Positions 2-12,622 of a DNA stretch of 64,000 nt are shown here, one piece after another. A program made the translations under genes and the position numbers. This DNA comes from Rhizobiaceae bacterium. Lineage in GTDB: Bacteria; Pseudomonadota; Alphaproteobacteria; Rhizobiales; Rhizobiaceae. The first letter of the stretch is position 1. The number at the start of each line of letters is the position of its first letter. The notes under the pieces were generated by a model that did no database searches, was not told the origin of the DNA, and saw only the letters and a list, made by a program, of their open reading frames with translations. The stretch is from positions 1 to 64,000 of the forward strand of contig JAIXTO010000089.1 of assembly GCA_027483885.1 (NCBI GenBank), given 5' to 3'.

Positions 2-118
2 AAACAGATGCGGGGCTTGGCAACCCGATACGACCGACGCGCCGACAACTATCTCGCAGCCATCAAGCTTGCAGCTACAAGGATATGGATCGCATCAGCT
101 AATGAGTCCGCATCCTAG
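2..118 (+). mobile_element. 3' end of IS5-family-like transposase (truncated by window start)
   Basis: Frame 2 reads ...KQMRGLATRYDRRADNYLAAIKLAATRIWIASANESAS*, resembling the C-terminus of IS5-group DDE transposases (RYDK.A.NFLAA.KLA.IRIWLR..ES). Stop TAG at 116-118. Confidence 0.65.
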
Positions 119-870
119 TAGAATGTCGCGATCCGCTGCCCATCCAGATCGTGCACCTTGAACGGGCTCTGGTAGATTTCACCCAGCGTTTCGGCCTCAA
201 TAATGTCGTTCACGCTCCCCTGCCGGAAGACACGGCCGTCACGCATGGCAACGATGTGATCGGCATAACAGGATGCGAAATTGATGTCGTGAAGGACAAC
301 GACGACCGTTTTGCCCAGATCCCGGCTGGCTTGTTTCAGCAGCGACATCATGGCGACGCCGTGAGGTATATCGAGGTTGTTGAGCGGCTCGTCGAACAGC
401 ATGTAATCGGTGTCCTGACACAGGATCATGGCGACGAAGGCGCGCTGTCGCTGACCGCCCGATAGCTCGTCGAGATAACGATCGGCTAGGGGGCGGAGCT
501 TCAGATAGTCCAGTGCTTCGTCGATCTTTGTCTTGTCTGCGATTGTCAGCCGTCCCTTGGAATAGGGGTAACGACCGAAGGCGACAAGATCGCTGACGGT
601 GAGCCGCGCGGCCATGTGGTTGTCCTGCCTGAGGATCGAGAGCCGCCTTGCGAGCATCTCGCCTCTCGTCTGGAAGACATCAAGCCCGTCGAGATGAACC
701 GTGCCGGCGTCCGGAAGCATCAGGCGCGCGATGATCGACAGGAGGGTGGACTTGCCAGCGCCGTTCGGCCCGATGATCGCCGTCAACCCGCCTTTGGCCA
801 GCGTCAGGCTGACATCGTCCAGAACCGTGCTGGTGCCATAGGCCTTGCTGAGACTGACGATCTCGATCAT
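115..870 (-). CDS. Iron-siderophore ABC transporter ATP-binding protein
   Basis: Walker A GPNGAGKST, signature LSGGQRQR, Walker B YMLFDEP; adjacent to FecCD-type permeases. Confidence 0.93.
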   Translation of the reverse strand: MIEIVSLSKAYGTSTVLDDVSLTLAKGGLTAIIGPNGAGKSTLLSIIARLMLPDAGTVHLDGLDVFQTRGEMLARRLSILRQDNHMAARLTVSDLVAFGRYPYSKGRLTIADKTKIDEALDYLKLRPLADRYLDELSGGQRQRAFVAMILCQDTDYMLFDEPLNNLDIPHGVAMMSLLKQASRDLGKTVVVVLHDINFASCYADHIVAMRDGRVFRQGSVNDIIEAETLGEIYQSPFKVHDLDGQRIATFY

Positions 871-1835
871 CGCGCACGCCCCTTGATCAGATAGAGGATA
901 AAGAACAGCCCGCCCGCGAATTCGATCACGATGGCAAGCGCGGTATTGTAACCGAGCGCGCGCTCCAGGATTGTCTGTCCGAACACGAGCGCGGTGAAGG
1001 CAATGAGAACAGCTGCCGGCAGCACATGCCGATGGGTCGCGACTGGCATCAGCAGATAGGCGAGGTTTGCCACCAGCAGCCCAAAAAAGGTGACGGGGCC
1101 GACCAGCGCTGTGGAAACGGAGACCAGCACCACGCAGAGCGACAGCATCAGGATCGATGTTCGCCGGTGATCGACGCCGAGCGAAATCGCGGCCTCGCGC
1201 CCCAGCGCCATGACATCCAGCCGATGCAGAAGTGGAAGGGCAAAGAGACTCGCCGCCAGGATAAGACCTGAGGATATGCCGAGAAGCGTTGGATCGATCG
1301 TGTTGAAACTGGCAAACAGCCTGTCCTGGAGCACGACGAAATCGTTGGGGTCGATGATCCTTTGCAGGAAGCCGGCAGCGCTGCGAAAGAGGATGCCGAA
1401 GAATATGCCGACCAGCAGCAAAAGATGCAGGCTGCGCAGCCTGTCGGAGAACAGGAAACGAAACAGCAGCAGCGAGAAGCCGACCATGACCGATACCTCG
1501 ACGGCAAACATGAGACGCGCATCGATGCCGGCGACCACATTGGCGCCGAGCAGGAAGACAAGCAGCGTCTGGAGGAAACCGAAGAGAGCATCGAAGCCCA
1601 TGATCGACGGCGTCAGGATGCGGTTGTTGGTAATCGACTGGAAGATGACAGTCGAAACGGCGACAGCATAAGCGACCAAAGCGAGCGCCAAAAGCTTCGT
1701 GCCGCGAAACGTCAGGATGAAGGACCAGTTGCCGCGAGCACCATAGGTGAGAAAAACAAGGCAGCCCGCCAGCGCTGCGGCCAGCAGCAGGCCGAGAATG
1801 AACCGGGTGGATCGCAGTCTCTGGTCAGGCGACAC
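867..1835 (-). CDS. Iron-siderophore ABC transporter permease (FecCD family)
   Basis: Hydrophobic FecCD-like protein (TALVGPVTFFGLLVANLAYLL); 4-bp overlap with the ATPase gene. Confidence 0.92.
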   Translation of the reverse strand: MSPDQRLRSTRFILGLLLAAALAGCLVFLTYGARGNWSFILTFRGTKLLALALVAYAVAVSTVIFQSITNNRILTPSIMGFDALFGFLQTLLVFLLGANVVAGIDARLMFAVEVSVMVGFSLLLFRFLFSDRLRSLHLLLLVGIFFGILFRSAAGFLQRIIDPNDFVVLQDRLFASFNTIDPTLLGISSGLILAASLFALPLLHRLDVMALGREAAISLGVDHRRTSILMLSLCVVLVSVSTALVGPVTFFGLLVANLAYLLMPVATHRHVLPAAVLIAFTALVFGQTILERALGYNTALAIVIEFAGGLFFILYLIKGRAR

Positions 1836-2883
1836 GGGCGTTCTTTCTCAAGACCATAGTCAGAAAGACGATGCTGCCGAGGATGCCGAGCACGGTGCCG
1901 ACAGGCACTTCATAGGGCGCAATGATCATCCGGCCGAATATGTCGCAGGCAAGCACGAGACCGGCACCGGCAAGCGCCGTGACGGGAAGGCTGCGCCGCA
2001 GATTATCTCCCATCGCCATGCTCACCAGATTGGGGACGATGAGACCGACGAACGGCACCATGCCCGCGGTGACAACAACCGATGCCGTGACCAGCGAGAC
2101 GATCACCAGTCCAAGCGCCAGCACACGCCGGTAGTTCAGCCCGACATTCTGGGCAAAGGCTTCCCCCATGCCGGCAAGTGTGAAGCGGTCGGCAGCGACA
2201 TAGGCCATAACAGCCAGTCCAAGCGCGACCCAGAGCGTTTCGTAGCGTCCCCGCAGAATGGTGGAAAAGTCGCCGCTCACCCAGGCCCCCATGCTCTGCA
2301 TCATGTCGAAGCCATAGGCGAAGAAAGCCGTGACCGCGCTGATGACACCGCCGAGCATGATGCCGACCAGCGGCACCATCAGAACCGAACGCAGCGGAAT
2401 CTGACTGAGGATGAGCAGGAATATCGTCGTGCCGGCAAGCGAAAAGCCCGCCGCAACCAGCATCTTGCCCAGAACAGGCATGTCCGGCGCAACCAGCAGG
2501 ACGACCAGCATGCCAAGGGCTGCCGATTCCACCGTTCCCACGGTAGATGGCTCAACAAAGCGGTTGCGGGCCAGCATCTGCATGATGGTGCCGGCCACCG
2601 CCATGCTCGACCCGGCAAAGACGAGTGCGAGCGTGCGCGGCAGGCGGCCGGCGCTCAGCACCAGCCACTGGGCCTCGCTGATGTCGCCACGGAGAATTGC
2701 CAGAGGCGAAATGGCGCTGACGCCGACAAAGAGGCTCACCACCCCCAGCACGCCAATCAGGATGCCCATTAGCACAAGGATCGCGGTCAGGCGTGGCAAC
2801 ACGAAGACGTCCGTTCTGAAGGCGGTTCGGCAAAGCCGTTCGGGCGAACCCTCCGGCCTGGGCAGGATTTCATTTCCGGGCAA
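1825..2883 (-). CDS. Iron-siderophore ABC transporter permease (FecCD family)
   Basis: FecCD motifs (GMVPFVGLIVPNLVSMAMGDNLRRSLP); overlaps neighbouring genes. Confidence 0.92.
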   Translation of the reverse strand: MPGNEILPRPEGSPERLCRTAFRTDVFVLPRLTAILVLMGILIGVLGVVSLFVGVSAISPLAILRGDISEAQWLVLSAGRLPRTLALVFAGSSMAVAGTIMQMLARNRFVEPSTVGTVESAALGMLVVLLVAPDMPVLGKMLVAAGFSLAGTTIFLLILSQIPLRSVLMVPLVGIMLGGVISAVTAFFAYGFDMMQSMGAWVSGDFSTILRGRYETLWVALGLAVMAYVAADRFTLAGMGEAFAQNVGLNYRRVLALGLVIVSLVTASVVVTAGMVPFVGLIVPNLVSMAMGDNLRRSLPVTALAGAGLVLACDIFGRMIIAPYEVPVGTVLGILGSIVFLTMVLRKNARVA

Positions 2884-3787
2884 GCGCCGCTGTGATCTGA
2901 TCCACCGACGACTGGAGCGAGGTCATTCCGGCACCGACGAGATACCAGGATGCGGCGTCGAGGTAAACGACATGACCTTTCTGCCAGGCCGCCGTCTGGC
3001 GAACGATGTCGTTGTCGAGAAGCTTGGAAGCCGAAGCCCCCTGCTCGCCGATGGCGCCGTCGCGGTCGATGACAAAAAGCCAATCGGGGTTCTTCTCAAG
3101 AATATATTCGAAGGAGACCGGCTGACCATGGTTGCCGGCAGCAATCTGGTCATCGGCCGGCTGGAAACCGTAATCGGTAAACAGCACGCCGAAGCGGGAA
3201 CCGCGACCATAGGTGCTCATCTTGCCACCTGTCGTCAGCACCAGCATCGCCTTGCCCGAAGATAACGCCTCAGTGCGCAGGGCAGAAGTCGAGGATTCCA
3301 GGCGGGCCAGTGCTGCTTCCGCCTCGGCCTGCTTGCCGAAAATCTCTCCAAGCTTGCGGACATTGCCCACAGCACTTTTCATGAAGGACTTGGGATCGGT
3401 GGTCAGATCAATCGTCGGCGCGATGGCAGCGAGTTCCGCATATTTCGGCGCCGCCCGTCCGGCCACGATGACGAGATCCGGCTGCATGGCACCGACCGCT
3501 TCATAATCCGGCTCGAAGAGAGAGCCGATCTTTGGCTTGTCCTTAAACTGCGACAGTGATTTCGGCAGGTTGGCCTCAGGCACGCCGGCCACATCGACGC
3601 CGAGTGCGGCAAGCGTATCGAGCGCCGAGAGATCGAAGGTCAGCACCGTTTTCGGCGGCACGGCAAGCTCCGTTACGCCCTGCGCATGGGTGATCTTCAG
3701 CGGTTCGGCCATTGTCGGCGCTGGCCCGACGGTCGCAAGGAAAGCGCCCGCGAGTGCCGCGATGGAGAAATACCTGTGATGCCGCAT
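2870..3787 (-). CDS. Siderophore-binding periplasmic protein (FatB/CeuE/YclQ-like)
   Basis: Signal peptide MRHHRYFSIAALAGAFLATVGPAPTMA; periplasmic binding protein fold sequence with TTGGKMSTYGRGSRFG. Start re-assigned to 3787 rather than 3883. Confidence 0.9.
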   Translation of the reverse strand: MRHHRYFSIAALAGAFLATVGPAPTMAEPLKITHAQGVTELAVPPKTVLTFDLSALDTLAALGVDVAGVPEANLPKSLSQFKDKPKIGSLFEPDYEAVGAMQPDLVIVAGRAAPKYAELAAIAPTIDLTTDPKSFMKSAVGNVRKLGEIFGKQAEAEAALARLESSTSALRTEALSSGKAMLVLTTGGKMSTYGRGSRFGVLFTDYGFQPADDQIAAGNHGQPVSFEYILEKNPDWLFVIDRDGAIGEQGASASKLLDNDIVRQTAAWQKGHVVYLDAASWYLVGAGMTSLQSSVDQITAALARK

Positions 3788-3848
3788 GATGTGCCCCCTT
3801 TGCCGCCTCGATCGCAGGCGCGAACGGCCGACACGACAAAGCATAAGT

Positions 3849-3863
3849 TGAGTTTTGCGGTCA
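3849..3863. promoter_or_regulatory. Candidate iron-responsive (RirA/IRO-type) operator
   Basis: TGA-GTTTTGCGG-TCA (TGA-N9-TCA) between the divergent binding-protein and LysR-TrpD2 genes. Confidence 0.5.
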
Positions 3864-3890
3864 GATATGTAACTGGGCAGCATCAGGTCA

Positions 3891-5423
3891 ATGAAGAAGT
3901 TTTTGACTCCTTCTAATTTGCTCCATGCGCAAAAGGCTTCGGGAGAGATAACGGTGGCGAAGGAAGAAGGTGCCCCAGTAACCAGCGCGACGAGGGACGA
4001 GGCCGTGCGCTTTCAGCAACTGCGCCTCCTGGTGGCGCTGGATGCGCTGCTGCGAGAAGCAAGCGTCAGCCGCGCTGCTGCGACACTGGGCCTCCAGACA
4101 TCCTCGATGAGCCGGATGCTAGGCGAGTTGCGGGAAATCTACGGCGACCGCATCTTCATCCGCACCGGCCGCGGCATGTCGCCGACGCCGTTTGCCGAGT
4201 CCATCCGCCAGCGCGTCCGCACCCTGGTGACGGAAACGGAAGCGCTGATGCTGAAGGATGGGGCGGCCCTTACCGCCAGTGCCGGGACCCTGGGAGACGG
4301 CTGGACGGGCAGGACACTGATGCCCATGGCGCCGCTCGCGGCCACCCGCAGTGACCGGCTCGACGCTTCGCCGACACCGGCAATCCTTGCCAGAAGGATC
4401 GCCTCCATCGGTGACAACGCCGCGCCGCAACGCCGGCTGGCAAAATATATCGCGATCACGTCGCCGGGCCCCGGCAAGAGCCGTCCAATGACGACAGAGG
4501 AGGCCCGCGATGCCTTCACCATCGTCCTCAGCGGCGAGGCAGATCGCGTCCAGGTCGGCGCGCTGTTGATGACGATGCAATATCGCGGCGTCACGACGGC
4601 AGAGCTTGCAGGTTTCGTGCAGGCGATCCGGGGCCGTATCCCGCCGGTGCCGGACGCACTCGGGCGTCCCGATCTTGACTGGCCGGCCTATGTGTCGGCG
4701 AGCTGGCGTCATCCCCCCTGGTTCATTCACGCCGCACGGCTCGTCGCCTCCGGCGGGTACAAGGTGCTGATCCACGGCTTTTTCGGCAATGGCGAGGAAA
4801 GCGGCAAGCTGGAGCTTGCCGCCGCCGATGCCGGTATCCGGGTCTGCCTTTCGGTGACCGAGGCGGCGCAGGCGCTTTCGCAAACCAACCTGGCCTATGT
4901 GCCGATCGGGGCCCTCGTGCCGCAGGTGCAGAGCCTGCTTGGCCTTTATCCGCTGTTTGAAACGCGCACACCGGTTCATGCCTTGCCCCACCTCGTCAAC
5001 CCGATGGCAGCACCCTGCATCGTCCTGGGTGCTGCCCAGATGTCGCGACGGGATCTTTATCGAGATGTCGCACGGCAACTCGGAGAAAAGGATGTGACGA
5101 TCCTGGGATCGGTGCGCGATTTTGCACAGTTCACCCCGCTGAAGGCGACGCCGCTCTATCGCATCGTAGAGGGCCAGTCCGAGGATGTGATTGTCCCGGC
5201 CCAGCGCGACGTCAGCCAGATTGCGACACCGCCGATCCTGTCGCAGCGGGAATACTGGCGAGCCGTGTGGACCGGTGCTGCCCGCGACGAATATGCCGAG
5301 GCAACGATTGTCAAAACCGCAGCTGCCGCCCTGCTCTGCCTGGCAAAGGACCGGGCCTTGTCCTTCGAGTCCGCACTGGAGCATGCGGTTCACCTCTGGC
5401 AGAAACGCGACCGCCACGGCTGA
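3891..5423 (+). CDS. LysR-type HTH fused to TrpD2/YbiB-like (anthranilate phosphoribosyltransferase-like) domain
   Basis: N-terminal LysR-like HTH (LRLLVALDALLREASVSRAAATLGLQTSSMSRMLGELREIYGDRIFIRTGRGMSPT). C-terminal TrpD-like sequence (RPMTTEEARDAFTIVLSGEADRVQVGALLMTMQYRGVTTAELAGFVQAIR ... HALPHLVNPMAAPCIVLGA). Confidence 0.82.
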   Translation: MKKFLTPSNLLHAQKASGEITVAKEEGAPVTSATRDEAVRFQQLRLLVALDALLREASVSRAAATLGLQTSSMSRMLGELREIYGDRIFIRTGRGMSPTPFAESIRQRVRTLVTETEALMLKDGAALTASAGTLGDGWTGRTLMPMAPLAATRSDRLDASPTPAILARRIASIGDNAAPQRRLAKYIAITSPGPGKSRPMTTEEARDAFTIVLSGEADRVQVGALLMTMQYRGVTTAELAGFVQAIRGRIPPVPDALGRPDLDWPAYVSASWRHPPWFIHAARLVASGGYKVLIHGFFGNGEESGKLELAAADAGIRVCLSVTEAAQALSQTNLAYVPIGALVPQVQSLLGLYPLFETRTPVHALPHLVNPMAAPCIVLGAAQMSRRDLYRDVARQLGEKDVTILGSVRDFAQFTPLKATPLYRIVEGQSEDVIVPAQRDVSQIATPPILSQREYWRAVWTGAARDEYAEATIVKTAAAALLCLAKDRALSFESALEHAVHLWQKRDRHG

Positions 5424-5505: not shown

Positions 5506-7773
5506 TCAAAAACGGGCAGCAAGCGAGACGTAGAAGGAGCGGCCGGGCTCGTTGTAGGTGTTTGCCCCTGCATTATTGCCGCTGCCTTCGCGATAGACGC
5601 GCTCATCGAAGACGTTGTTTATGCCAGCCGTCATACGATAGGTCTCGTTTATCTCGTAGGAAGCGCCAAGATTGACCAGCGTATAGGGCTTGCGGGGTTC
5701 CGGGTTGTCGACCACGGAACCATTGAAGGATCGTGAGGTGGGCGACTGCGTTTCACCGTAATGGGTGGCAGACAGGATCAGCGTGACATCCTCGCGCGCT
5801 TTCCATTCGAGCGACGTGTTGATCGTATAGTCCGGCACCAGCGACAGCGGCTGGCCGTCGCTCTTGTTTTCCGACTGGATCATATAGGTGAAGTTCGTCG
5901 CCCAGGTCAGCTGTTCATGCAGGGGCACGGACACATTGCCTTCCAGGCCGGAGACGACGGCCTCGGGCACGTTATCCCACTGGTAGACGTTGACGGTCGC
6001 GGTGCTCATGCCTGCGACGGCGATGGTCGAGGGCGAAATCCGGTTGCGGTAATCGTTATGAAAATAGGTGAGACCCGCATTCCAGCCGAGGTCGTCGTTG
6101 TAGGAGATACCAATCTCCTTGTTGATGCTGGTTTCCGGCTCGAGGTTTTCGTTGCCGATGATGTAGCAGCCGCCGGTGGTTCTCACGGCGCAACCATTGC
6201 CGTTTGAAAACAGGATATATTCGGGGTTCTGCTGAAAGAGGTTCGGCGCCTTGAAGGCCCTTGCGATGCCGGCCTTCAGGGTAATGTTCTCTGTGACGGT
6301 GTAGGATGCGTTGAGGCTTGGGCTTAAGTTCGAGCCGAAAGCGCTATGCTGATCGAGACGAAGTCCAGGCGTCAGCGTGAAGTCGTCGGTAACGGAAATG
6401 TTGTCTTCGGCATAAAGGCCGATCAACCAGTCGCTGCTGTCGGGGTCGAGGTTGCGGGGGATGGCCGGAATTGTGGGATAGGAAACGCTGCTGGAGCCTG
6501 GCTGAGCCGCAGAGACCGGATCATGCATCCATTCGCCGCGATACTCCGTGCCGATCGTCAGCTTCTGCTCGAAGAGGGTCTCGAGCGGCAGGATCCATTC
6601 GCTTTTGGCCGTCAACGTGTCGAGATCAATAGTGCTATTGGTGAGGTCACCGGAAATTGAGCCCTCGCTGCCGCCGGCCAGCGTTTCCGCAAGGCGGGTG
6701 TTGCGCGTGCGCTCCCACTGGATGTAGCTGGTCGATTCGCCGAAATCGTAGGTGCCGCGATGGGTGGCCGCAAGCGACCCGCGTTCCAGGCTGTTGGTTT
6801 CCTCCCCCACCAGCGAGGACAGACGGGCCGCATTCGCACCGGTTGCAGCGTTCTGCGAATCTCCCGCAAACAGGTTGCCCTGGCGGCTATAGGCAGCCTC
6901 GATGTCGATGGCGTGGTCATCGGTCGGTTCGAAGGTGAGGACACCGCGAATGTCCCGGTTGACGACGCCCTCGCGTCCTGCCGGCGGATTTGCCTGTGCT
7001 GCAGCGGAAGCTGCGGCATTGATGTCGGCAGCGTCGTTCTGGGTTCGGCTGTAGTTGCCCATCAGACGGAAGGAGGTCGTTTCGTTGATGGGTCCGCCCA
7101 CCAGGAAGTTGCCGCGAACGGTATGGCCTTCCTTGGAGTCCTGCGGAACGTTCACGTAGGTTGAGGCGGAGCCAGAAAGCGTCTCCGGCTTCTTCGTGAT
7201 AATGTTGACGACACCGCCGGCAGCACCCGACCCGTAGCGGGCTGCGGCCGGTCCGCGGATGACCTCGATGCGCTCTATGGCTTCCGCCGGAACCCAGTTG
7301 CTGTCACCGCGCGAATCCCGCTCCCCGCCGCGCCCCATGCGCACCGAGTTGCGCGACAGCACCGGCTTGCCGTCGATCAGGATCAGTGTGTTTTCCGGCC
7401 CCATGCCGCGCAGGTCAATCTGGCGCTGGTTGCCGCGCTGCCCGGATGCGCTGGTGCCGGTCAGGTTGGCGCCGGGCATCCGTCGGATGATTTCCGAGAT
7501 GTCGTTGGTCACGGGCCGCTGCTCCAGGTCGCTTGCCGTGATCGTTGACACGCCGGGCATCTGCTTCAACTGCTGTTCGGCCGAGAGGATGAGAACCTTG
7601 TCCAGCACAATCCCGTCTTCCTCGCCAGTGCCCTGCTCCTGGGCCTGCGCGGCGGTTGACGCGAGCGAAAGGACCGCACTTAAAACCACCGAAGCGCGCC
7701 CGACACCTCGACCCGAGCAACGCCCCGTCCGCCGCCCGGCATGTCCTGAAATCGGCCTCGTCATCCGCACCAT
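5506..7773 (-). CDS. TonB-dependent siderophore receptor (FepA/PfeA-like)
   Basis: Signal sequence, plug domain (MPGVSTITASDLEQRPVTNDISEIIRRMPGANLTG; IEVIRGPAAARYGSGAAGGVVNIITK), C-terminal ...SFYVSLAARF. Confidence 0.95.
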   Translation of the reverse strand: MVRMTRPISGHAGRRTGRCSGRGVGRASVVLSAVLSLASTAAQAQEQGTGEEDGIVLDKVLILSAEQQLKQMPGVSTITASDLEQRPVTNDISEIIRRMPGANLTGTSASGQRGNQRQIDLRGMGPENTLILIDGKPVLSRNSVRMGRGGERDSRGDSNWVPAEAIERIEVIRGPAAARYGSGAAGGVVNIITKKPETLSGSASTYVNVPQDSKEGHTVRGNFLVGGPINETTSFRLMGNYSRTQNDAADINAAASAAAQANPPAGREGVVNRDIRGVLTFEPTDDHAIDIEAAYSRQGNLFAGDSQNAATGANAARLSSLVGEETNSLERGSLAATHRGTYDFGESTSYIQWERTRNTRLAETLAGGSEGSISGDLTNSTIDLDTLTAKSEWILPLETLFEQKLTIGTEYRGEWMHDPVSAAQPGSSSVSYPTIPAIPRNLDPDSSDWLIGLYAEDNISVTDDFTLTPGLRLDQHSAFGSNLSPSLNASYTVTENITLKAGIARAFKAPNLFQQNPEYILFSNGNGCAVRTTGGCYIIGNENLEPETSINKEIGISYNDDLGWNAGLTYFHNDYRNRISPSTIAVAGMSTATVNVYQWDNVPEAVVSGLEGNVSVPLHEQLTWATNFTYMIQSENKSDGQPLSLVPDYTINTSLEWKAREDVTLILSATHYGETQSPTSRSFNGSVVDNPEPRKPYTLVNLGASYEINETYRMTAGINNVFDERVYREGSGNNAGANTYNEPGRSFYVSLAARF

Positions 7774-7783
7774 CCCATAATGT

Positions 7784-7798
7784 TGACTAATTAAGTCA
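7784..7798. promoter_or_regulatory. Candidate iron-responsive (RirA/IRO-type) operator
   Basis: TGACTAATTAAGTCA = TGA-N9-TCA with 5-bp palindromic arms, 11 bp upstream of the TonB receptor start. Confidence 0.55.
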
Positions 7799-7879
7799 GC
7801 TAATAGGGTCCCACTTGGCAGGCTTCAACGGGGATGTTTTAGAACCGTTAAAAATTGCATGGAACGCAATTGGCGCGTT

Positions 7880-8779
7880 TCAGGCACTGCCCCAGGTGCC
7901 GATCAGCATCGCGAGGAACCGCTCCGCTGCCGGTGACAGCGTCCCTCCCCTTCGCCGGACCACGCCGATCGTTCTTGAGATCTCGGGGTTTCGAATGGGC
8001 CGCGTGATCAGGAAAGGATGTTCGCCCTGCGGTGTTGCCATCTGCGGCAGGACCGAGATCCCCAATCCCGCCTCCACCAGACCGAGCGAGGTGGAGAGAT
8101 GCGTCACCTCGTAAAACCACCGCAGCCTGATGTTGGATTTCGCCAGCGCACCGTCCAGCAGGGTGCGGTTACCGCTGGAGCGATGCACGGTGATCAGATG
8201 GTACGGCGCCAGATCCTCCCAGCCCACCTCGGCCTTTTCCGCCAGCGGATGATCCTTGCGGGCGGCCAGGACGAAGGGGTCTTCCACGAGCCGGTCAAAG
8301 ATCAGGTCCGGATCCGCCGTTCCCATGATGTTGATGCCGAACTCCACCTCCCCGCGTGAAACCGCCTGCAATCCGTCCGTGGCGGGCAGATCGAGGATGC
8401 GGAAACGGATGTTGGGGTATTCAACGTTGAACTGACGGATGACCGTGGGCAGGAAATAGAAGGCGGCCGTCGGCAGGCAGGCAATCGTCACCAGCCCGCC
8501 GCGCTGGACCGCCGGATCGCGCACTGCAAACAGCGATCCGTCGAATTCCTCCAGCATGCGCCGCACCAGCGGTATCAATTCCGCGCCCAGTGCCGTCAGC
8601 GACACGTGCCGCGTCGTGCGCTCCAGCAGCGGCGCCCCGATGGCAAGCTCGAGTTTCTGGATGCGCCGGCTGAGCGCCGGCTGGGACATGTTGAGGATGT
8701 CGGCCGCCCGGTGGAACGTTTCCAGCTCAACAATCGCGAGAAATGCCCGCAGGTCCAGAATCTCACAATTAATGCTCAT
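7880..8779 (-). CDS. LysR family transcriptional regulator
   Basis: N-terminal HTH LRAFLAIVELETFHRAADILNMSQPALSRRIQKLE; divergent from the prpF-like gene. Confidence 0.93.
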   Translation of the reverse strand: MSINCEILDLRAFLAIVELETFHRAADILNMSQPALSRRIQKLELAIGAPLLERTTRHVSLTALGAELIPLVRRMLEEFDGSLFAVRDPAVQRGGLVTIACLPTAAFYFLPTVIRQFNVEYPNIRFRILDLPATDGLQAVSRGEVEFGINIMGTADPDLIFDRLVEDPFVLAARKDHPLAEKAEVGWEDLAPYHLITVHRSSGNRTLLDGALAKSNIRLRWFYEVTHLSTSLGLVEAGLGISVLPQMATPQGEHPFLITRPIRNPEISRTIGVVRRRGGTLSPAAERFLAMLIGTWGSA

Positions 8780-8892
8780 ATCGCATCAATACTCCGAATC
8801 TTCGCATTTCACATATCAATCCATCTGCCACAGAGTGCAACAAATCAACTGATTGATACCCACTACACATGAGTGGAGGCGAAAGCGCAAGC

Positions 8893-9975
8893 ATGAACGA
8901 TCTGATGTCTATTCCCTGTGTGCTGATGCGAGGCGGAACATCAAAGGGCCCGTTCTTTCTGGCGTCCGACCTGCCGGTCGATCCTCGAGAGCGCGACCAG
9001 ATCCTGCTGTCCGTCATGGGGTCAGGGCATCCGCTTCAGATCGATGGCATCGGCGGTGGCAATCCGGTCACGAGCAAGGTTGCGATCATCGGCCCCTCTA
9101 CGATTGCAGGCGCCGATATCGACTATCTCTTCGCGCAGGTGCGCATCGATCAGCAGCTGGTCGATACGGCGCCCAATTGCGGAAACATGCTGGCAGCCGT
9201 CGGCCCCTTTGCCATCGAAGCCGGGCTGATACAGGCGCAAGGGCCAACGACGCTGGTGCGCATCAACAACGTCAATACAGGCAAGCTGATCGAGGCCGAG
9301 GTCCCGACGCCCGATGGCAAGGTTTCCTATCTCGGAGATGCCAGCATTGACGGCGTGCCGGGCAAGGCCGCACCGATTGCGCTGACTTTCATGGATGCGG
9401 CAGGCGCCCGGACGGGCAAGCTCTTTCCCACAGGCCAGTCCTGCGAGCTGATCGACGGCATTGCCGTGACCTGCATCGACTGCGCCATGCCGATGGTTCT
9501 GATTGAGGCCGAGGCGCTCGGGGTGAGCGGATACGAGACCGCAACGGACCTCAACGCCAACAAGGCCCTGCTTGCACGGCTGGAAAGCCTGCGGCTGGAG
9601 GCAGGCCGGCGCATGGGCATGGGCGACGTCACCAACCAGGTTACGCCGAAGCCGGTGCTGATCAGCAAGGCCCGCAAGGGCGGCGCTCTCAATGTGCGGT
9701 ATTTCATGCCGCATGAATGCCACCCTTCCCTTGCGACAACCGGTGCAGTTGGAATTGCGACAGCCTGCATCACGGCCGATACTGTGGCATCCAGGCTTAT
9801 CGGGCTTCGGACGCCGCCGATCGTTTTATCTATCGAACATCCCAGCGGCCATCTCGACGTCAAGCTGCAGGAGCGCGACGAAAAGGTGATTGCCGGAATT
9901 CTGCGCACCGCGCGCCGTCTCTTCGAGGGACATGTCTTTGCAAAGCCGGCCAGCCAGTTCGTGTGCGCGGCTTGA
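8893..9975 (+). CDS. PrpF-family isomerase/4-oxalomesaconate tautomerase-like protein
   Basis: IPCVLMRGGTSKGPFF...GSGHPLQIDGIGGGNPVTSKVAIIGPS and APNCGNMLAAVGPFAIE motifs. Confidence 0.88.
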   Translation: MNDLMSIPCVLMRGGTSKGPFFLASDLPVDPRERDQILLSVMGSGHPLQIDGIGGGNPVTSKVAIIGPSTIAGADIDYLFAQVRIDQQLVDTAPNCGNMLAAVGPFAIEAGLIQAQGPTTLVRINNVNTGKLIEAEVPTPDGKVSYLGDASIDGVPGKAAPIALTFMDAAGARTGKLFPTGQSCELIDGIAVTCIDCAMPMVLIEAEALGVSGYETATDLNANKALLARLESLRLEAGRRMGMGDVTNQVTPKPVLISKARKGGALNVRYFMPHECHPSLATTGAVGIATACITADTVASRLIGLRTPPIVLSIEHPSGHLDVKLQERDEKVIAGILRTARRLFEGHVFAKPASQFVCAA

Positions 9976-10020
9976 AATCACGTGGTCGCCGGGAGGGCAC
10001 CACTTAACGGAGGAAAAACA

Positions 10021-11022
10021 ATGCGTAAATTCATGCTCGCTTTGGCGGCAACTGTTGCTTTCGCCGGAGCAGCGATGGCTGAGCCGGTTCGTATCAGCGT
10101 CGGATCCTACAACCTCAACAACCTGCCATTCCCGGTTGCCCAGGGGCTCGGCCTCTATGAGAAGGAAGGCCTTGACGTCACAGTCGAGAATTTTGCCTCC
10201 GGCGGATCGAAAACCCTTCAGGCGCTGGTCGCTGGCTCGACCGACATTGCCGTTGGCTTCTACGATCACACGATCCAGATGCAGTCGCAGAACAAGGCGG
10301 TCGTCGGTTTTGTCATGATGGCGCGCAATTCAGGCCTCGTTCTGGCCGGTGGCAACAAGTCGACCTTCGATCCCGCCAAGCCCGAGACGATCAAGGGCGC
10401 AAAGATCGGCATCACGGCGCCGGGCTCCTCGTCGGACTTCTTCGTTCGTTATTACCTGCAGCGTCACAAGCTCGCGGCAGACGATATCGCGCTGATCGGC
10501 GTTGGCTCGGGCTCGGCAGCCGTTGCGGCCCTGGAACAGGGCAAGATCGATCTTCTCGTCAACTATGACCCGGCGGCCACCTTCATCGAGGCCAAGGGCG
10601 TCGGCAAGATCCTCATCGATGCGCGCAGCGACGAAGGCGCCAAGGAAATCTATGGCGGCATCTACCCGACCTCGGTCCTCTACGCCACGCAGTCCTACAT
10701 CGACGGCAATCCCGAGACCATTCAGAAAGTCACCAACGCCACCGTCAAGGCGCTGAAGTGGATGAACTCCCATTCCGCCGAAGAGATCGTCGAGACGCTG
10801 CCCAAGGAGTTCATCTCCGGCGACCGCGAGACCTATGTGAAGGCGGTACAGAACGCCAAGGCGATCTTCTCCACCGATGGCAAGTTCAACCAGGAAGATA
10901 TCAAGACGCCGCTCGCCGTCCTCAAAAGCTTCAACGAGAAGGTTGCGGCAACGGAGATCGATCTTTCCAAGACATACACCAACGATTTCGTCGGCAAGGT
11001 GCCGCACGACGTCGCGAACTGA
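10021..11022 (+). CDS. ABC transporter substrate-binding protein (SsuA/NMT1-like)
   Basis: Signal peptide MRKFMLALAATVAFAGAAMA; NMT1-type sequence (GLYEKEGLDVTVENFASGGSKTLQALVAGSTDIAVG). Confidence 0.9.
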   Translation: MRKFMLALAATVAFAGAAMAEPVRISVGSYNLNNLPFPVAQGLGLYEKEGLDVTVENFASGGSKTLQALVAGSTDIAVGFYDHTIQMQSQNKAVVGFVMMARNSGLVLAGGNKSTFDPAKPETIKGAKIGITAPGSSSDFFVRYYLQRHKLAADDIALIGVGSGSAAVAALEQGKIDLLVNYDPAATFIEAKGVGKILIDARSDEGAKEIYGGIYPTSVLYATQSYIDGNPETIQKVTNATVKALKWMNSHSAEEIVETLPKEFISGDRETYVKAVQNAKAIFSTDGKFNQEDIKTPLAVLKSFNEKVAATEIDLSKTYTNDFVGKVPHDVAN

Positions 11023-11034
11023 CAGGAGGAGGCA

Positions 11035-11865
11035 ATGTCATTGGCCGTAGTCAAACCCGCGCCGGAAGCTGAGGCAACCGCACGCAACAAGGCCATGGTG
11101 TCGATCGACACCGTGACCATGTCGTTCGGTGCGTTCGTTGCCGTGGAGAATGTCAATCTGACTGTTGCGGATGGCGAGTTCCTCGCCATCGTCGGGCCGA
11201 CGGGCTGTGGCAAGAGCACGATCCTGAACGCCATCGCCGGATTGTTGAAACCCTCGCACGGCACCGTGTCGATTGACGGAAAAGCGGTCAATGGCGTTCA
11301 CAACGACATCGGCTACCTGTTCCAGCAGGATGCGCTCCTGCCGTGGAAAACCGCGTTGGAAAATGTCGAGCTTGGCCCGATGTTCAAGGGTGTCGGCGCC
11401 GCCGAGCGTCGAGAAAGCGCGCTGAACTGGCTTGCGAAGGTCGGCCTGAAAGGCTTTGAGCATCGTTATCCGCATCAGCTGTCCGGCGGCCAACGCAAGC
11501 GCGTGCAGATGGCGCAGGCGCTGATCACCGGCCCGAAGGTGATCCTGATGGATGAACCCTTCTCGGCACTCGACATCCACACCCGCCACCTGATGCAGAA
11601 CGAACTTCTGCGCCTGTGGCAGGAAGAACGCCGGGCCGTCGTGATGATCACGCACGATCTTGAGGAAGCAATCGCACTTGGCGACCGCGTCGTGGTGCTC
11701 GCCGCCGGCCCGCGCAGCCGCGTGATCGACAGTTTTCCCGTCGATCTCGCCCGCCCGCGCGATGTGGCCGAAATCAAGCTCGATCCGCACTTCATGGATC
11801 TGTACCGCAACATCTGGGCGTCGCTGCGCGGCGAAGTGGAGAAAAGCTATGAACGCCATGACTGA
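11035..11865 (+). CDS. ABC transporter ATP-binding protein (SsuB/TauB-like)
   Basis: Walker A GPTGCGKST, LSGGQRKR, VILMDEPFSALD. Confidence 0.94.
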   Translation: MSLAVVKPAPEAEATARNKAMVSIDTVTMSFGAFVAVENVNLTVADGEFLAIVGPTGCGKSTILNAIAGLLKPSHGTVSIDGKAVNGVHNDIGYLFQQDALLPWKTALENVELGPMFKGVGAAERRESALNWLAKVGLKGFEHRYPHQLSGGQRKRVQMAQALITGPKVILMDEPFSALDIHTRHLMQNELLRLWQEERRAVVMITHDLEEAIALGDRVVVLAAGPRSRVIDSFPVDLARPRDVAEIKLDPHFMDLYRNIWASLRGEVEKSYERHD

Positions 11866-12622
11866 ACGCCTGATCCAGTTGTGTCTGCTGGTCGTCATCC
11901 TGGGTGGCTGGCAGCTGGGCACATCGCTCGGTGTCATCGACGTCTTCTTCTTCCCCGCACCTGTCGATATCTTCAACCAGGTGATCCGGTGGGTGACGGA
12001 TACCGGCTTTTATCGCCATGTGACGATTACGCTGACGGAAACGGTTCTCGGCTACCTCATCGGCACGGGCCTTGGCGTCGCTGCCGGCGTCTGGCTCGGC
12101 CTCAGCCGTAGCGCCTCGCGCATTCTCGATCCCTTCATCAAGGGGCTGAATGCCATTCCGCGCGTGGTACTGGCGCCGATCTTCGTTCTCTGGCTCGGCC
12201 TTGGCCTCTGGTCGAAGGTGGCGCTTGCGGTGACGCTGGTGTTCTTCGTTACCTTCTTCAATGCCATGCAGGGTGTGCGGGAAGTCAATCCGGTGGTTCT
12301 GGCGAATGCCCGCATTCTCGGGGCAAAGCGTTCCGATCTCCTGCGGCACGTCTATTTCCCGGCAGCGGCAAGCTGGATCCTCTCCTCCCTTCGCACATCG
12401 GTCGGATTTGCTGTCGTGGGCGCCATCATCGGGGAATATCTCGGCTCGTCAGCCGGCCTCGGTTACCTGATCGCCCAGGCGGAAGGCAATTTCGATGCGG
12501 TTGGCGTTTTTGCCGGTATCCTCATCCTGGCGATTTTCGTCCTGATCATCGACAGCATTCTCGACGTGGTCGAAAAGCGCCTGATCAAATGGCGCCCAAG
12601 CGCCAGCGAAAGGCCCGCCTGA
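11849..12622 (+). CDS. ABC transporter permease (SsuC-like)
   Basis: Binding-protein-dependent permease with GLNAIPRVVLAPIFVLWLGLGLWSKV; start re-assigned to MNAMTERLIQ. Confidence 0.92.
   Translation: MNAMTERLIQLCLLVVILGGWQLGTSLGVIDVFFFPAPVDIFNQVIRWVTDTGFYRHVTITLTETVLGYLIGTGLGVAAGVWLGLSRSASRILDPFIKGLNAIPRVVLAPIFVLWLGLGLWSKVALAVTLVFFVTFFNAMQGVREVNPVVLANARILGAKRSDLLRHVYFPAAASWILSSLRTSVGFAVVGAIIGEYLGSSAGLGYLIAQAEGNFDAVGVFAGILILAIFVLIIDSILDVVEKRLIKWRPSASERPA

Follow-up and report, generated by a model that had tools for sequence, protein, structure and literature searches.

The stretch of DNA analysed here (64,000 nucleotides, referred to as the window) carries a gene whose product joins a LysR-type winged helix-turn-helix (wHTH) to a domain with the fold of anthranilate phosphoribosyltransferase (AnPRT), as found in TrpD2 proteins. 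This fusion gene is located between an operon encoding a siderophore substrate-binding protein (SBP), two FecCD permeases and an ABC ATPase and a gene encoding a FepA-type TonB-dependent receptor (Table 1), and the identification of these five genes confirmed that the fusion lies in an iron locus, as originally predicted. The best NCBIfam match of the SBP was an SstD-type catechol SBP, with a score under the cut-off. Beyond the receptor gene, an ordinary LysR gene with a PF03466 domain (7880-8779) is found divergent from a PrpF-family gene, followed by an apparent NMT1/SsuA-like ABC transporter set, and this region (7880-12622) is considered a separate unit.

Table 1. Genes, protein domains and predicted regulatory elements of the locus (window coordinates)
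Feature	Position	Strand	Basis or remark
ABC ATPase	115..870	-	PF00005
FecCD permease 2	867..1835	-	PF01032
FecCD permease 1	1825..2883	-	PF01032
Siderophore ABC transporter SBP, predicted target	2870..3883, probable start 3787	-	PF01497 1.4e-34
TGA-N9-TCA, just after SBP -10	3849..3863	.	exact match to reported RirA operator consensus
-10-like CATATC, SBP promoter	3864..3869	-	16-bp spacer
-35 box TTGACC, divergent SBP promoter	3886..3891	-	34 bp from operator centre
LysR-TrpD2 fusion ORF	3891..5423	+	510 aa from ATG 3891; probable true start GTG 3954, 489 aa
Predicted operator 1, CTAATTTGCTCCATGCGCAAAAGGC, T-N11-A palindrome	3913..3937	.	dyad count, matrix, genome pattern
Shine-Dalgarno GGGAGAG for GTG 3954	3941..3947	+	sequence
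LysR-type winged HTH, residues 44-103	4020..4199	+	PF00126 E 7.1e-15; AlphaFold helices and wing strands
Linker helix, residues 106-120	4206..4250	+	AlphaFold secondary structure; dimer-making helix in LysR proteins
Connector, mostly disordered, residues 123-159	4257..4367	+	pLDDT <50 at 123-134, 151-159
TrpD2/AnPRT-fold domain, residues 163-507	4377..5411	+	PF02885, NF006564, Foldseek
FepA-family catecholate TonB-dependent receptor, predicted target	5506..7773	-	NF010048 965 bits
Predicted operator 2, AAAAATTGCATGGAACGCAATTGGC, upstream of TonB receptor	7850..7874	.	TTGAAG at same +34 position

In the original prediction, the fusion gene starts at ATG 3891. However, the protein probably begins at GTG 3954 and comprises residues 22-510, since predicted operator 1 would otherwise fall within the proposed N-terminus and a good Shine-Dalgarno sequence precedes this second codon. 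By the same reasoning, the SBP gene likely starts at 3787 instead of 3883, where it had been placed before.

The wHTH, expected at residues of about 38-118, was recovered by PF00126, and in an AlphaFold model built with 63 fused sequences (pLDDT 84.4, pTM 0.70) it displays helices at residues 32-56, 59-66 and 70-84 and wing strands at 89-98. Apart from the wHTH, the linker helix and the disordered connector, the model shows a compact domain at residues 163-504, consisting of a helical bundle and an alpha/beta domain. Foldseek related this part to the AnPRT 1khd_B (E 1.9e-14) and to YbiB (8bfr, E 6.7e-13, TMt 0.79), so that the TrpD-like fold proposed for the C-terminal part was found, and a PDB sequence search matched AnPRT, YbiB and LysR proteins to the corresponding parts of the fusion. 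In the domain searches, PF02885 (Glycos_trans_3N) matched residues 198-247 (E 4.7e-13), and PF00591 (Glycos_transf_3), which had been proposed for the search together with PF00126, matched residues 281-486 (E 3.3e-5) under its gathering score. The NCBIfam model NF006564/PRK09071, named 'glycosyl transferase family protein', covered residues 174-508 with 299.2 bits versus a cut-off of 257, whereas the YbiB model reached 72.3 bits versus a cut-off of 185 and the TrpD model also remained well under its own cut-off. Thus, the TrpD2/AnPRT fold stands as predicted, and this part of the protein belongs to the PRK09071 branch rather than to YbiB proper. The Pfam search gave no match to the LysR effector domain PF03466 in the fusion, although the ordinary LysR protein encoded at 7880-8779 does contain it, in accordance with the original proposal that a TrpD2/AnPRT fold takes the place of the effector domain. 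Since domain matches, AlphaFold model and Foldseek matches agree, the LysR wHTH-TrpD2 fusion is real.

A copy 97% identical to the fusion is found in another assembly, and an independent genome scan revealed no fewer than 80 loci in which one frame encodes both the HTH and the TrpD2 part. They belong to many families of Alphaproteobacteria and occur in Rhizobiaceae, Brucellaceae, Phyllobacteriaceae, Stappiaceae, Azospirillaceae, Novispirillaceae, Xanthobacteraceae, Microvirga and others. In the window's genus, a relative matching both parts occurs in 14 other genomes of 57, being split over two frames in one of them (G043), while another genome (G038) carries two fused paralogues, at C3:113595-114986 and C3:329560-330960, which are 49% and 57% identical to the protein of the window. 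Two of the 80 loci, L096 and L138, have a truncated HTH part; taken with L014 and L015, these four cases of a truncated HTH or a gene split over two frames indicate that some copies may be decaying. In four Rhizobium/Neorhizobium relatives (L003, L005, L072 and L073), the fused frame runs stop-free into sequence with an IalB domain and a stretch resembling a signal peptide, giving about 683 aa in total, which may represent a single protein or a second, overlapping gene for a secreted product. The same gene layout is seen in annotated plasmid records, with the product named 'glycosyl transferase family protein' or 'LysR family transcriptional regulator'. In a phylogeny of 93 TrpD2 domains, the 45 from fusions group together with 100/100 support, their long branch arising amid the standalone relatives, and this single clade fits a single origin of the fusion. 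The alternative that two genes were joined by a sequencing or assembly error, raised with the original prediction, is contradicted by this clade, by the 97% identical copy and by about 80 single-frame relatives from independent genomes; it was ruled out, and its probability is regarded as negligible. No description of the fusion was found in the open-access journal literature searched.

The TrpD2 domain has lost the motifs on which the enzymatic activity of TrpD depends. In fact, the PRPP motif GTGGD, whose absence had been noticed from the start, is replaced by AYVSA, and the KHGN position reads IHGF, with HG retained. Additionally, the Mg-binding DE of TrpD aligns with A412-Q413, the anthranilate-binding Arg is Tyr or His in the fused clade, and the NF006564/PRK09071 invariants KGxGGE and R at positions 230 and 367 are absent. 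Judged from these residues, the domain is catalytically dead. An active phosphoribosyl- or glycosyltransferase tethered to DNA by the HTH would suit the AnPRT fold and the name 'glycosyl transferase family protein' in the records, but the replacement of GTGGD, of the metal-binding DE and of the anthranilate Arg makes this reading very improbable, and it was rejected on motif loss.

Despite this loss, conservation in the fused family is higher in the four AnPRT substrate loops (0.61 versus 0.51 elsewhere), a value reached by none of 330 mask shifts. The fused clade conserves the loop residues S269, P270, R409 and D410, as well as W456 outside the loops, whereas standalone relatives have other residues at these positions. 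The same enrichment in the cleft loops is observed in the standalone proteins; thus, it supports a retained pocket and is by itself no proof of sensing. Moreover, as the anthranilate Arg is replaced by Tyr or His, the ligand class is not inferable from homology. The original prediction had left open whether the domain acts as a sensor or as a second DNA-binding module, and these family-specific residues favour the former. In a YbiB-like reading, the domain would instead serve for oligomerisation or as an accessory nucleic-acid-binding module, and the signal would enter elsewhere, for example only through RirA or Irr at the promoter. The YbiB dimer was reported to hold DNA within its basic grooves (PMC10123104), the folds of YbiB and of the fused TrpD2 domain match well, and basic residues persist near the YbiB Arg92 position, in a region where the alignment is ambiguous. 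An exact TGA-N9-TCA located after the SBP -10 also agrees with a signal entering elsewhere. However, in most fused proteins Ser or Gly occupies the YbiB Arg123 position, at which Arg is found in about half of the standalone relatives, and conservation concentrated in the substrate loops, including the four fused-only loop residues, suits a ligand pocket. Therefore, this module reading appears unlikely, though less so than any other alternative considered here, and a sensory cleft is preferred.

The gene neighbourhood connects the fusion and its relatives, present in dozens of soil bacteria, to siderophore uptake. The adjacent divergent gene codes for a TonB receptor in 49 of the 80 loci and for an SBP in 21 (together 70/80), and in the remaining loci a transporter or receptor gene is found nearby, except in L145. 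This locus, on a 3.4-kb contig, is the sole one showing no siderophore-uptake gene in its flanks, so that the co-occurrence with TonB/FecCD genes, for which a survey had been proposed, holds in 79 of 80 relatives. In Azospirillum-type loci, a different TonB receptor gene is found just downstream of the fusion, followed by a gene for a PKHD-type dioxygenase. All ten receptors sampled scored best with FepA/IrgA/CirA-type models, most of them under the curated cut-offs. In E. coli K-12 (L069, 5249-11532), about 2.3 kb separate ybiB from the catecholate receptor locus formed by ybiX and fiu, which is possibly a coincidence.

A candidate operator emerged from a count of palindromic dyads, performed with no prior model on 61 non-redundant upstream regions, in which TTGC-N7-GCAA occurred in 15 regions, while in shuffled sequences no dyad exceeded six. 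Starting from this dyad, a palindromic matrix (seeded EM) converged on CYAAWTTGC-N7-GCAAWTTRG, a T-N11-A LysR box, with a log-likelihood of 387 versus 32-59 in shuffles. Matrix scores above 12 were obtained for 75% of regions versus 2.6% of background pieces; as these regions had also served to train the matrix, the count of dyads is less affected by bias. Over the window as a whole, the site ranking second precedes the receptor gene, and in the window and 11 relatives such a site stands in front of a receptor gene other than the divergent neighbour. In most Azospirillum loci and in the Pseudochrobactrum loci, the matrix found no strong upstream site. Towards the target gene, the elements follow the order T-N11-A core, TTCTAAAAC-like element, TTGACC-type -35 and -10-like CATAAG, and in nearly all of 50 promoters a TTGA/TTGC-type -35 box is positioned at +34 from the core centre, which places the core near -70. 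It is known that LysR recognition sites are usually located at about -65 (PMC8407307), a position that the T-N11-A operator computed here fits. Of the two regions proposed earlier for binding assays, 7770-7880 does hold an operator, whereas operator 1 lies just outside 3790-3890. A further conserved element, CTCAASTTA, is observed about 10-15 bases after the -10 in most SBP and receptor promoters (about 3843-3853 in the window).

The derived operator pattern has two perfect matches in the 5.5-Mb genome, both in this locus; a third match with one mismatch (C31:43993) lies within coding sequence and was taken as chance. A second pattern, designed from the window and three relatives and searched genus-wide, gave matches close to the fusion in 10 of the 15 carrier genomes, with G013, G016, G029, G033, G038 and G040 as independent matches. 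It also matched in 4 of 43 non-carriers, three of these matches being a near-identical recurring sequence that is present elsewhere in two carriers too.

A different iron regulator may use part of this conserved DNA, as the promoter element is similar in its second half to TTTAGAA-N3-TTCTAAA, a sequence of the Irr consensus type. Indeed, the element beside the palindromic core differs from this sequence by three or fewer mismatches in 35 of 50 promoters, and shuffles rarely reach three. If the whole element were the site of an Irr- or RirA-like regulator rather than of the fusion protein, a site would be expected in fusion-free genus mates, where global iron regulators should occur, but these lack a convincing one. 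Additionally, the second element is degenerate in many loci in which the T-N11-A core is kept, the combined pattern is mismatch-free only at this locus in its own genome, and the site geometry suits LysR proteins (PMC8407307), so that this possibility is considered quite unlikely. A strict Irr-like palindrome was discarded as the main conserved element, its exact form TTAGAA-N3-TTCTAA being present in only 2 of 50 promoters. TGA-N9-TCA, the reported RirA operator consensus (PMC8822346), was likewise discarded as a common element, because by eye it is exact in the window and in L071 and not obvious in most other loci. Nevertheless, its match in the window makes iron repression of the SBP promoter by RirA plausible on sequence grounds.

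Computation established the fusion, its fold, the gene neighbourhood and the geometry of operator and promoter. Taken as a binding site of the fusion protein, the operator suggests the following mechanism. We infer that a LysR-type regulator, whose effector domain was swapped for a dead AnPRT/TrpD2 domain of the PRK09071 branch, would bind the two 25-bp T-N11-A palindromes, each centred about 70 bp upstream of a predicted transcription start, that of the SBP-ABC operon (near 3857) and that of the FepA-type receptor gene. This position is typical of LysR activators and would imply activation of both units, and regulation of the SBP and receptor promoters by the fusion protein is considered highly probable. 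The regulator probably represses its own gene, since operator 1 ends 17 bp before its start codon. The signal would more likely than not be bound by the remodelled TrpD2 cleft. The retained pocket, together with the catecholate-type receptors, suggests a siderophore-derived ligand, plausibly a catecholate siderophore that is being imported or an aromatic acid that it sets free, and the catecholate origin of this ligand is advanced only tentatively. Altogether, the protein is likely to be an activator of catecholate-siderophore uptake and autorepressor with the remodelled cleft as its probable sensor, and it probably represents a previously undescribed kind of iron-scavenging regulator. The broader proposal of a new LysR class, in which a dead phosphoribosyltransferase fold was converted once in Alphaproteobacteria into a sensor of foreign catecholates and spread with the uptake loci, may be right or wrong with about equal probability.

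Regulators of the LysR type, which count among the most abundant in bacteria, are defined by a single effector-domain fold; thus, a widespread subfamily carrying a TrpD2 swap shows that the LysR DNA-binding head can pair with another module and, if the sensor reading is true, that a metabolic active site was turned into a regulatory pocket. For the TrpD2 fold, which has an obscure biological role, this provides a concrete and testable setting comprising target promoters, a candidate ligand class and a predicted operator, the latter being the new element of this analysis. These findings also suggest how rhizobia, agrobacteria, Brucella relatives and Azospirillum may control the uptake of siderophores made by others, a function of the fused genes that is hidden by the current annotation, mostly 'glycosyl transferase family protein'.

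As regards known systems, the fusion has the PF00126 wHTH and linker helix of LysR-type regulators, in which the effector domain is the periplasmic-binding-protein-like PF03466; without this domain, replaced here by TrpD2, it is not a canonical member of the family. The standalone NF006564/PRK09071 proteins, above whose family cut-off the fused domain scores (299 versus 257), have in common with it conserved residues such as W264, H295-G296, R359, W460, W503 and R506, but lack an HTH and retain KGxGGE and several Arg, Glu and His residues lost in the fused clade. Their genes (standalone TrpD2-like genes occur in L018, L019, L020 and L152) adjoin, in the few loci seen, not siderophore genes but NrfD and CbiA-type genes in some alphaproteobacteria or, in a different class of the phylum, a DsrE/TusD-like gene, suggesting that they are connected with sulfur relay or dsr loci. 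E. coli YbiB, the nucleic-acid-binding founder of TrpD2, also possesses an AnPRT fold without GTGGD; however, it has no HTH fusion, shares 17% identity with the fusion in the structural alignment, is represented by a model that the fusion matches far under the cut-off, and carries an Arg123 that is mostly replaced in the fused family. With TrpD itself the fold is common, whereas the catalytic and substrate-binding motifs are replaced. ModE, in which a LysR-like HTH is joined to molybdate-binding MOP domains, sets a precedent for coupling such an HTH to another ligand-binding domain, although its sensor fold and target differ from those of the fusion. IrgB of Vibrio cholerae is a LysR-type regulator and has in common with the fusion the wHTH and linker helix and, as predicted here, a T-N11-A operator near -70, a divergent target gene and a catecholate receptor as target. 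IrgB is described as the activator of the enterobactin receptor IrgA (PMC7600106), and AraC-like or LysR-like regulators are reported to induce receptors of this kind (PMC4141801).
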